Shown piece after piece: positions 16,601 to 45,196 of a DNA stretch of 64,000 nt. The DNA is from Sialis fuliginosa. Lineage: Eukaryota; Arthropoda; Insecta; Megaloptera; Sialidae. Location of the stretch: NCBI GenBank assembly GCA_961205875.1, contig OY540810.1, positions 20,770,001-20,834,000 on the forward strand, written 5' to 3'. The notes below the pieces were generated by a model that saw nothing but the letters and a program-made list of their open reading frames with translations, was not told where the DNA came from and made no database searches. Numbering within the stretch: the stretch's first letter is position 1; the number at the start of each line of letters is the position of its first letter. The position numbers and the translations under genes are program-made.

Positions 16601-16875
16601 TTAGATATCGCCGGATTAGCATCACATATTATTTACAAAATCGTCAATGATAAGATTGGAAGAACGGATGCACGTCGAAAATTTCTTCATATTTTGGTCG
16701 AGCAATTGGTGACCTCTCAGATAGAGGAAAGAATTAATAATCTGAGAACAATCGAGAAATTTCAAGTACAAAATGGCATAGAATCTTTCTTTGGGGAACC
16801 ATTACAACATAAAATTTCACAACCAAACAGCGGCAAACCAGATGAAATCCTGCAAGATTTATCGAATAAATGGTA
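16601..16875 (+). pseudogene. piggyBac-like transposase fragment
   Basis: An open frame from 16601 to TAA 16873-16875 encodes about 90 residues beginning LDIAGLASHIIYKIV. It resembles the region of piggyBac transposases (DDE_Tnp_1_7 family) just after the last catalytic aspartate: an asparagine/serine-rich helix with IIYKIV, then ARRKFLHILVEQLV, corresponding to the usual R.FL..L...LV..QI motif, and a linker leading to the C-terminal zinc ribbon. Catalytic residues upstream and the zinc ribbon downstream are missing. The internal start at 16694 is only a TTG, so this is the tail of a longer protein. A Penelope-like arm begins about 12 bp after the stop. Confidence 0.6.
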
Positions 16876-16885
16876 AATTTATATA

Positions 16886-17003
16886 TACAAGTCTTGAGGA
16901 TTCCGGGGTGATCTTGATATGAATCTTGGCTTCTGGGTGTAAACTACGTCGATTTGGTCGTGTTGTCCAATGTTTCGTTACACATTGCAGTGGACATCTG
17001 GAG
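16886..17003 (-). mobile_element. Penelope-like arm, single unit
   Basis: Begins ACAAGTCTTGAGG and contains GGCTTCTGGGTGTAAAC, GTCGATTTGGTCGTGTT and CACATTGCAGTGGACATCT, the same order as in the fold-back copies at 33600-33850 and 34523-34772. Read on the minus strand, the GAAAC half of the hammerhead-like core is present (16972-16976) but the CTGAAGA half has decayed. It is a solo arm, placed directly after the piggyBac fragment, suggesting insertion into that element. Confidence 0.6.
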
Positions 17004-33178: not shown

Positions 33179-33599
33179 TTAACCCATTAACGCCCAAGAG
33201 TGCGTGAACGCAACATTTTTTTTAGTGATATAAAATTTTTGTTTTCTTTTATTATTATATGAGTTTGTTAGAAGAAGAGACTCTCTTTCATTCTGCCAAA
33301 ATAGAATAGTTATATTATTTTTGTCACAATTATTATTCATATTTAAAAACACATAAAAAAGAGAATTTACGCACATGTTTACAATTTCAGTACATTTAAA
33401 TAACCTGTGATATTTATCAGTATTTGTTTACTCTTACTGTATCGTTAATGGGTTTATCTTACGAATAGACATATTAAAAAAATTAATTGTTTATGTTTAG
33501 TTGAAAATAAACAAACGAAATATCTAGTGTGCGTTGACGCACTCTTGGGCATTACAATGAACTCAAGTGGCGATACAGATATTATTGTAAAAACCTCAG

Positions 33600-33850
33600 C
33601 AGTTCAGTGCATCATCTGTATCTTTATGGATTTTGGCTTCTGGTTGTAAACCGCGTCAATATGGTCGTGTTATCGACCAACGTTTCATCACACATTGCAG
33701 TGGACTTCTTCAGGGCTCTTCTAAAAGTTAATGTTAGTAGAGCCTTGAAGATGTCCACTGTAATGTGTGACCTAACACGACCAAATTGACGCGGCTTACA
33801 CCCAGAAGCTAAAATCTATATCCAGCTCACTGCGGAAGCCTCAAATCTTT
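33600..33850. mobile_element. Penelope-like fold-back insertion 1
   Basis: Two copies of one unit in head-to-head inverted orientation. Left arm: GGCTTCTGGTTGTAAACCGC, GGTCGTGTTATCGACCAACG, CACATTGCAGTGGACTTCTT; right arm is the reverse complement ending CCCAGAAGC and GGAAGCCTCAAATCTT. The centre pairs GGCTCTTCTAAAAG with TAGTAGAGCC. Read on the minus strand, the left arm has CTGAAGA (33707-33713), a hairpin GTCCAC..GTGTGA and GAAAC (33682-33686), like the conserved core of Penelope hammerhead motifs; the right arm has lost GAAA. A probable duplication of about 15 bp (TTATTGTAAAAACCT at 33582, TTATTGTGAAATCTT at 33849) brackets it inside the piggyBac start region. Confidence 0.6.
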
Positions 33851-34522
33851 ATTGTGAAATCTTAAAAGAATATACAAAGTTAGTAATGTTAGTATATGTA
33901 TAATGTATATACATACTATATAAATAATATTTATTAAAAATAGTTTACGTAACAATGGTTATTAGTTATTCTTATAATAATACAAACTATGTAAATTTTA
34001 ATTACTTTTATTTTTTTAACGAAACTTATTTCTATATAGATGTCATATGAAATGAGATAAACTCTAACAGAGCAAAAACTCGAACAACTAATTTTTATTA
34101 GTTGCTCTTCTGAAATGAGTGATTATGAAATAGATGCAGTTTATGGTATATTACTCTCTAAGTAGATGAATTGACTAATGAAGAGGGAATTGACTGTGAA
34201 TCATAGTATAAATACGTGGGAAAAAATTGTGGTGGCCACTATTTAGCAATATGATATAGATATTATAACAGTAATTGCGTGGAAAATTCACAATATTGCA
34301 AATAATACAAAAATTTCCCAACTTGATTTTCCATCCTATGTTGCTGATGCCCTAATAAAGCACGAGGGAGTAGCAGATGAGACACAAGAACCTGTGGCCA
34401 CAATCCACAAATCCTAATCTCGGCCGTCCTTCAATACATTTTTTATGAAAAGATGTGTAATATGAAAATATAGGCCATATTATCAGAGTACATGATACAA
34501 ATGCACGAACGAGATGTAAACA

Positions 34523-34772
34523 TTCTACAAGTCTTGAGGCTTCCGTGGTGATCTTGATATAAATCGACACGGCTTATACCCAGAAGTCAAATCACTTCTG
34601 GGTATAAGCCGTGTCGATTTGTTTATGTTATCGGCCAACGTTTAGTCACACATTGCAGTGTACATCTTTAGGGCTCTTCTATACTTTTAGAAGAGCCCTG
34701 AAGATATACACTGCAATATGTAACGAAACGTTAACATGATCAATCGCCGCGGTTTACACCCAGAAGCCAAGA
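34523..34772. mobile_element. Penelope-like fold-back insertion 2
   Basis: A 250-bp inverted pair of the same unit, starting CTACAAGTCTTGAGGCTTCC and ending CCCAGAAGCCAAGATCC. It is bracketed by AGATGTAAACATT (34510-34522) and AGATGTAAATATT (34773-34785), 12 of 13 identical, a clear target duplication inside the piggyBac pseudogene. The left arm has an extra inverted copy of the CGACACGGCTTATACCCAGA segment (34564-34612), giving a second small hairpin. The right arm, plus strand, keeps CTGAAGA (34698-34704) and GAAA (34725-34728) around a hairpin; the left arm has lost both. Confidence 0.75.
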
Positions 34773-35161
34773 TCCAGATGTAAATATTGTAAAAATCAAA
34801 GAATTTTTGTGTTGTATTTTTAGATTCACTTATTTATATATTTTTACTATACATAGTTATATTATACCTTATACGCCCAAGAGTGCGTCAACGCAACATT
34901 AAATATTGGGGAACTTGGACCCCCCAAAAAATTTTTTTTTGTAAAATAAGCTTATTTTTTAAATAAATAAACATATTAACAAAACATTTCTTATAATTTT
35001 TGAAAACTTAACCCTTTGGGCATTAATGGGTTAATATATAAATCTATACAAATTTTAAAACACGTGTTGCTTACATAATCTATGTTGTAAAAACATAGCG
35101 CAGAAAATTAAAAATACATTTAATTTAATGTATTTTGATTGGTTTTGTTAATAATATGACA

Positions 35162-44168: not shown

Positions 44169-44718
44169 GGTACTGGCACTAGTCTTAGATATGACCCCAG
44201 TAATGACTATTTTTTAATTAAATGTACTGAATTGTGTTGATATTTGATTACAACTATTTCTGAATATTAATCTATATACATATATTTAACTGTCTTACAG
44301 CGTGGTTTAACGACAATCGGCCAATAGGTGTCAAAATGGTGGACATTTAAACTAATTATTAGTATAATTTATTTATTAATTATTATAGTATAATAACAAC
44401 TGCTTTACATTATTTTAAATTTGACGATTCTTTTTTTTATATATTTTGTGTCGTAGTAATTATCATTTTGTAATCATTAGAAACCACTACGTGCTCATTA
44501 CTGGTTTTACTTTATCCATTACTCGAGAAAAACAAACAAAATAAAAGGCTATAATTAAAAAAAAAACTATATTTGCGAACTTTGGTGATAAAATTGATTA
44601 AAAAAGAGTTACTTGTTTTATTAGTAACATGAGTTCATGAGAATTACAAGAAAGAAGCCCGTCAATCACAAAAACAGTAAACCGTGCCATTATAGCGGCC
44701 ATAACTGGTGCCAGAATC
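44169..44718 (+). mobile_element. GGTACTGG-family TIR element, copy C
   Basis: Left end GGTACTGGCACTAGTCTTAG, right end the reverse complement of GATTCTGGCACCAGTTATGG. Flanking ATAACTAA and TTATATAA agree at five of eight positions and could be a worn duplication. Interior order as in copy A: ATGACCCCAGTAATGAC, AATGTACTGAATT, TGACATTTTGACACCTATTG in reverse wording (CAATAGGTGTCAAAATGG), CATTACTGGTTTTACTTTAT, AAAGGCTATAATT. 550 bp. Its right end lies inside a tandem duplication. Confidence 0.75.
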
Positions 44719-44852
44719 TTATATAAGTATAACAAAATCACAAATGTTTTAATTAAAGAAGCCCGTCAATCACAAAAACAGTAAACCGTGCCATTATAGC
44801 GGCCATAACTGGTGCCAGAATCTTATATAAGTATAACAAAATCACAAATGTT
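44651..44852 (+). repeat. Recent 104-bp tandem duplication
   Basis: 44651-44754 and 44755 onward are identical over about 98-100 bases, both starting AAAGAAGCCCGTCAATCAC and running through the right end of the GGTACTGG copy into flank ATATAAGTATAACAAAATC. Because it spans the element boundary, the duplication is younger than the insertion, and the perfect identity makes it the youngest event visible in the window (or an assembly artefact). Confidence 0.9.
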
Positions 44853-45196
44853 TTTATTTTTTATTTTCGCGCTTCGAAAACGTTGATATCTCGAAAAGAT
44901 AGCTTTGTGTAGGATGATGGTTGATACATCAGTGAAAACCACAGTCCAAATATAAAAGTAAAATATGGCTTGCATTTTGAGAAATGCTACACTTAACAAA
45001 ACAGTCGACTAACAAGGTCAACTGCGTTTGACTTTAAAATACCCTAATGCATACAATATTTATAACTTCCATCTATTGTACCATTTGTACCCTGAGCGAT
45101 TCGTCTAGCCTTATTAACAACGGAGACGCTATTAATTTATATACATATATGTAGTTTAACAAAATCACGACGACAAACAAATAATTGTTGTCCATT

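Follow-up and report, generated by a model that had tools for sequence, protein, structure and literature searches.

MITEs and internally deleted copies of piggyBac are class II elements that insert specifically at TTAA. Nested and composite transposons can spread as a unit. One study describes Penelope-like insertions as an inverted pair of pseudo-LTRs, one of which may carry a tail of ~31 bases, flanked by a duplication of 8-10 bp (PMC3846280), and minimal type I hammerheads are reported in Penelope-like elements in another (PMC7229834).

The window, a stretch of 64,000 bases on contig C2 (20770001-20834000) of a 392-Mb assembly in 20 contigs (14 of them large), is AT-rich (G+C 28%), and its list of open reading frames holds none of at least 120 aa. 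Within it, positions 33179-35034 (+) run from TTAA to TTAA and very probably represent a non-autonomous composite of piggyBac type, a copy of an element that spread as a dispersed family while carrying two fold-back units inside it. This annotation draws on end analysis, a genome search and an empty site. The composite begins TTAACCCATTAACGCCCAAG and finishes GGGCATTAATGGGTTAA. Its 5' end, TTAA plus terminal inverted repeat, was placed at 33179-33197 (+) by repeat analysis and an exact-match count for CCCATTAACGCCCAAGAGTGCGT, and the corresponding 3' end at 35016-35034 (-) by inverted-repeat analysis. The outer 19 bases of the two ends, TTAA included, are 95% complementary; both the TTAA flanks and the inverted ends are as readable as a preliminary description of the locus had reported. 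An inverted copy of the composite end lies sub-terminally at 33530-33554 (-, repeat analysis), and a direct copy is found at 34875-34895, within a 3' segment (34866-35034, +) discussed below for its likeness to a MITE. Elsewhere in the window a 104-base unit stands twice head-to-tail at 44651-44858 with a 99% match, a recent duplication.

At first sight the locus looked like a one-off. In a whole-genome search with the 1856-base composite as query, 40 of 2931 first-look candidates were scored, yielding 117 matching pieces. Rows spanning 1-1856 were obtained for 12 of the 40 scored loci, the window itself (100%) and 11 others at 84-95% identity, and the composite is therefore a repeat family with end-to-end copies elsewhere. 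We examined 28 composite loci, and 13 fetched copies align in one piece over 1-1856. All 13 full-length copies start with TTAACCC and have TTAA, the target of the piggyBac superfamily, at both ends; 12 of them end in GGGTTAA, the exception (L004) reading GTGTTAA. The right flank of L003 contains AATTCACTGT-TTAA-CTAGATACTATAGG, the empty form of the arrangement at L006, which reads AATTCACTGT-TTAA-element-TTAA-CTAGATACTATAGG. Taken together, this empty site and the end-to-end copies indicate that the whole composite moves as a single piggyBac-type unit. The composite has spread, and it has inserted at TTAA. The empty site for L006 belongs to a related repeat beside L003, with its single TTAA at about bases 313-316 past the element. 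Among the 26 flanks (900 bases) of the 13 full copies, five pairs have sequence in common at E 1e-10 or better, a degree of sharing that is expected for other repeats.

Ten composite copies diverge by 1.0-1.9% from their majority. A second, older group (L017-L022) has ~84-87% identity to the window copy and contains both units wherever both flanks are visible. Across the 28 loci examined, the first unit, A, is found in 26 of the 26 copies showing both flanks of its site, and the second, B, in 25 of 25; the spacing at site A is odd at L016 and L028. Because both units occur in both groups of copies, the insertions predate the spread of both groups. The repeat had been thought to have chosen the same host element twice, but the units are common to the copies by descent. 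Their co-occurrence with the host in many copies is a matter of inheritance, and a retroelement that seeks piggyBac is not required.

Judged by its ends, its TTAA and one short coding scrap, the composite appears to have piggyBac affinity. The inverted ends begin with CCC, as they do in the piggyBac superfamily, and similar ends are present in L039 and L040, two copies, identical over 2539 bp, of a piggyBac with a 616-aa frame and ends TTAACCCATTAC...GGGTTAA. L041 retains the frame and 3' end of that element. A probable relict of the C-terminal region of the transposase lies at 34211-34414 (+), where a WWPLF scrap is followed by an open stretch at 34247-34414, and in the family majority the scrap, IRGKKWWWPLF, aligns with the 616-aa frame at E 1.3e-4. 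That match may point to a DDE_Tnp_1_7 transposase (PF13843), but the core is deleted and Pfam gives no match; searches of Pfam and PDB returned no piggyBac match for the coding scraps of the window, 34247-34414 included. From the presumed ATG (34040) to WWPLF there are ~180 bases in the window vs ~1490 in the open-frame relative, and thus ~1.3 kb of the transposase core is missing. The deletion of the catalytic core is as first described. Both termini of the transposase had also been called readable; the C-terminal scrap bears this out for one of them, whereas the N-terminus, with neither a Pfam nor a PDB match to the scraps, is at most putative.

The exact end CCCATTAACGCCCAAGAGTGCGT has 67 matches in the genome vs 0 for the reversed control, and 29 of the 67 are no more than 2.5 kb away from a composite row in the genome search. 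Ten of the other 38 loci were fetched: seven hold a MITE of 138-139 bp that has both ends, another holds the same MITE, one end of it decayed, and the remaining two have the 5' end only. These eight MITEs (L098-L101, L103 and L105-L107) form a family of ~138 bp with the ends of the composite, and the composite resembles it at 68-73% over the final 170 bases. L102 and L104 have only the 5' end in common with the composite, and the insertion sites of the units fall outside them. At L102 (bases 437-660), the 5' end of the composite gives way after base 436 to TGCAGGTG-type repeats. The end core GCCCAAGAGTGCG is absent from all 30 transposase loci fetched out of 117 PF13843 matches. Of those 117 matches, 37 are located on contig C14, mostly at 2.7-8.8 Mb; C14, with ~4% of the assembly, is smaller than the other 13 large contigs.

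Unit A (33628-33844, -) is a Penelope-type fold-back with its short arm at 33628-33728 and its long arm and partial tail at 33734-33844, the tail lying to the right. Its target duplication, ATCTTTAT, occupies 33620-33627 (+) on the left and 33845-33852 (+) on the right. Unit B (34525-34775, +) is built in the other direction, long arm and tail on the left and short arm on the right, between the two copies of its target duplication, AGATGTAAACATT, at 34512-34524 (+) and 34776-34788 (+). Two Penelope-like fold-back insertions in a core-deleted piggyBac, each with its own duplication, had been claimed, and this much is upheld. The lengths given for the duplications were 15 and 13 bp. Thirteen is right for unit B, with one mismatch in the window copy and none in the majority; for unit A, 15 bp was ruled out once the unit ends were taken from other copies, and the duplication is 8 bp.

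The pre-insertion sites of both units can presumably be reconstructed from these duplications. When the joined flanks of site B were used as a genome query, none of the best 40 of 59 candidates, which were scored, was continuous across the junction. Relatives of two kinds were to be looked for at the insertion sites according to the preliminary description: an uninterrupted relative spanning either site was not seen among the searched loci, and one with the units as native sequence is contradicted by free copies of the unit. The window copy of unit B contains an inverted piece of 26 bases at 34566-34591 (-, approximate ends) without a counterpart in nine other compared copies. This piece creates a perfect inverted repeat of 27 bases, and the unit B gap of the window copy, 264, is the largest among 25 measured copies. 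Another arm of this Penelope-type family stands apart at 16887-16999 (+) and, in agreement with what had been observed for a third arm, adjoins a piggyBac remnant. The remnant, at 16604-16873 (+), is an old transposase relict of another piggyBac family and matches an open-frame piggyBac of the genome at tblastn values of 7e-8 and 7e-13.

Free copies were collected with the arm at 16886 as query. The best 40 of 1124 first-look candidates were scored and 39 were fetched with flanks of 350 bases, the fortieth being the window; the sample is of the copies likest the query and is not random. Most of the 39 fetched units start at TACAAGTCTTGAGGCTTCCGCGG or a few bases inside it. Most also have an inverted second arm, usually ending GATCC(A), while some, by eye, are without one, and the central junction, again by eye, varies between copies. 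The first arm is ~30 bases longer, with a tail of about 30-32 bases, and the target duplications measure 8-17 bases. At least 8 exact common bases were found around 21 of 41 unit loci vs a mean of 1.3 and a maximum of 5 in 500 shuffles with mispaired flanks, and 21 may be an undercount, as the automatic right end is wrong for some loci, L035 included. Inverted pseudo-LTRs with an optional tail of ~31 bases are seen in most of the 39 copies and in units A and B.

The units are non-coding and contain neither a reverse transcriptase nor a GIY-YIG domain, and no reverse-transcriptase element with their pseudo-LTR was found in the genome loci examined. We therefore file them as Penelope-type non-autonomous inserts and not as Penelope elements proper. 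A Penelope-like element of the same genome, L108, does encode RVT_1 (E 1.1e-10) and GIY-YIG (E 1.9e-6). Of the 41 left arms, 24 contain a CUGANGA...GAAAC core, vs 0.015 per 41 in shuffled arms, and L108 has it too, on the 3' side of its endonuclease. The typed arm consensus is predicted to fold with stems around this core, and the putative self-cleavage point of the arm would fall after GAAACGUU. Rfam reported no hammerhead for the units and gave 0 matches at gathering score for the whole window; the Rfam matches that the units did produce, mostly to microRNA hairpin models and below cut-offs, were attributed to the inverted repeat. Patterns for the unit core and the piggyBac end had 0 matches in viral contigs.

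Two units in one host element may also reflect a habit of the units themselves. It is possible, if not the reading we would choose, that they cluster with their own kind whatever the host, and that the double hit comes from such clustering or from shared open chromatin. A second unit lies within 350 bp at 4 of the 39 loci (L076, L086, L079 and, weakly, L075); two of these matches are strong (E 2e-35 and 5e-22), one is diverged (6e-7) and one is weak (0.002). By comparison, 30 piggyBac loci of ~4 kb each gave three matches, of which that at L035 is strong and the others are weak, and the 28 composite loci showed no unit outside the element. However, the 39 are the best of 1124 candidates, which may favour young or clustered copies. 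Such clustering may account for the pair of units in the composite.

Much less credible is the new insertion preference originally put forward, in which the Penelope unit prefers piggyBac remnants and the two units and the 16886 arm are the outcome of target choice. Three abutting or nested cases speak for it, namely the composite, the 16886 arm with its piggyBac relict, and L035 (C6:10252709 region), where at bases 430-640 a unit adjoins an open-frame piggyBac that is without its first TTAACCC. Three sister copies of that piggyBac keep TTAACCC and are otherwise identical to L035 over 364 bases. However, the pair in the composite is inherited, since both units are common to all scoreable copies, and represents at most two ancient events; L035 is 1 of 30 loci that were picked because they contain piggyBac; and the 16886 arm is the query itself. 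Among the 39 units not chosen for piggyBac, none has piggyBac protein (30 reference loci) in its flanks within 350 bp, a result that, as a small form of the check which the preliminary description itself proposed, tells against the preference. At the DNA level the flanks were set against the composite, the MITE and 12 piggyBac elements delimited by their own ends. In this comparison 2 of the 39 units (L065 and L081) gave short AT-rich matches to piggyBac sequence, vs 1 of 84 control window chunks; the second units in L075, L076, L079 and L086 match the composite's own units, with one L076 piece passing unit A at 65%. None of 40 units lies within 10 kb of the 117 transposase matches, where 0.24 would be expected, which makes this a test of low power, and none lies within 10 kb of the 40 composite loci (0.08 expected). 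By simple arithmetic, 0 of 39 is compatible with a piggyBac share of up to about 7%, and there may be a mild excess.

The arms themselves bear on the age and independence of the two units. The comparison used 83 arm columns and 49 free arms, which, except for that of L035, were picked by likeness to one query. The free arms are a median of 3.6% from their majority (n=49), a majority from which all four arms in the composite consensus diverge by 8.6-9.8%. Arm-to-arm divergence is 10% within A and 10.8% within B, but 15.9-16.0% between A and B. From these distances, A and B seem to have arisen by separate insertions, each predating the spread of the composite. Given that the units are present in all scoreable copies and that the copies have diverged little compared with the older units, each unit appears to have been inserted once, in an ancestor. 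The alternative that one unit was inserted and later duplicated within the element would account for A and B belonging to one family, but it is highly improbable in view of the larger distance between A and B than within either, their different flanking duplications (8 vs 13 bp) and their opposite orientation. Least tenable of all is the idea that the inverted units are palindromic sub-terminal DNA native to piggyBac; it agrees with the presence of a unit in every composite showing both flanks of the site, but the same unit occurs free elsewhere with its own target duplications and is missing from L039-L041 and from ten loci with the composite end, loci that do not span the sites.

We thus return to a composite whose copies inherited both units. 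In all likelihood a piggyBac element lost ~1.3 kb of its transposase core, as reckoned from the open-frame relative and the presumed start codon, and a Penelope-type retroelement inserted twice in this host, presumably by reverse transcription, each time leaving a short inverted pair of pseudo-LTRs and its own duplication. Either order of core loss and unit insertions is compatible with the data. An unambiguous order of events had been proposed; insertion of the units into piggyBac can indeed be read from the locus. The damaged element retained its inverted ends and would have been moved in trans, probably by a related transposase, so that its passengers spread along with it. The window copy has the additional inverted piece of 26 bases in unit B.

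Elsewhere the genome has Penelope-type genes in tandem arrays that are mostly divergent. The best 120 of 489 candidates were scored in a search for Penelope-type reverse transcriptase, and arrays may run longer than these matches indicate. The 120 fall into 43 clusters, of which 26 hold two or more copies, and steps of ~3.56 kb recur; 59 of the 120 matches, by eye, lie in 896-aa open frames. Examples of arrays include C10:984944-1019606, C7:62157-89811, C11:54318-76190, C3:36752227-36771979 and L110, among others. Strand changes in the scored clusters are divergent in 23 cases vs convergent in 6, and 6 of the 43 clusters lie within 200 kb of a contig end vs 0.6 expected. The divergent arrays could yet be an assembly artefact. 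The array element at L110 seems not to be the source of the units, having no significant arm similarity and no hammerhead-like core; its 860 aa within the fetched piece gave no Pfam match to RVT_1 or GIY-YIG at E 1.

We consider it doubtful, though worth stating, that Penelope-type integration here, whatever its scale, usually results in divergent (head-to-head) order. The usual GATCC end of the second arm, the variable centre and the divergent 3.56-kb arrays would follow if priming took place on both sides of the target break, with multimeric or circular RNA and a fixed second start on the template. If this were true, two events of this sort would be fossilized in the composite piggyBac. A literature search on twin priming by Penelope, nested insertion in piggyBac MITEs and head-to-head arrays of Penelope-like elements returned nothing to the point.

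What looked like repeated targeting becomes a case of hitch-hiking. Where repeats are nested in a mobile element, any claim of an insertion preference should first reduce them to one event for each ancestral insertion. The case is ordinary but neat, passengers in a non-autonomous piggyBac, and the more interesting matter is the Penelope-type arrays outside 33179-35034. The free copies display a clear Penelope-type fold-back anatomy, with fixed outer ends and a variable centre, and a genome with divergent Penelope-type arrays is a good place for studying Penelope-like integration.

How, then, does the locus compare with the systems described? The putative ribozyme of the units differs from minimal type I hammerheads in that base 10.1 of its core, which we take to be so placed by the hammerhead numbering, is not normally paired. 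It resembles those hammerheads in the CUGANGA...GAAAC core (PMC7229834). The units are like Penelope-like retroelements in the pair of pseudo-LTRs, the tail, the short duplications and the head-to-head order, but unlike them in having no open reading frame between the arms (PMC3846280). The host is similar to piggyBac MITEs and internally deleted piggyBac in its TTAA with a clean empty site, its CCC..GGG inverted ends and its core-deleted transposase, and it shares the genome with a 138-bp MITE whose ends are the same. Unlike those elements, the composite contains two retroelement inserts, and its end core is not found at the 30 transposase loci. With nested and composite transposons that spread as a unit it shares amplification after insertion, and from these it differs in nothing of principle.
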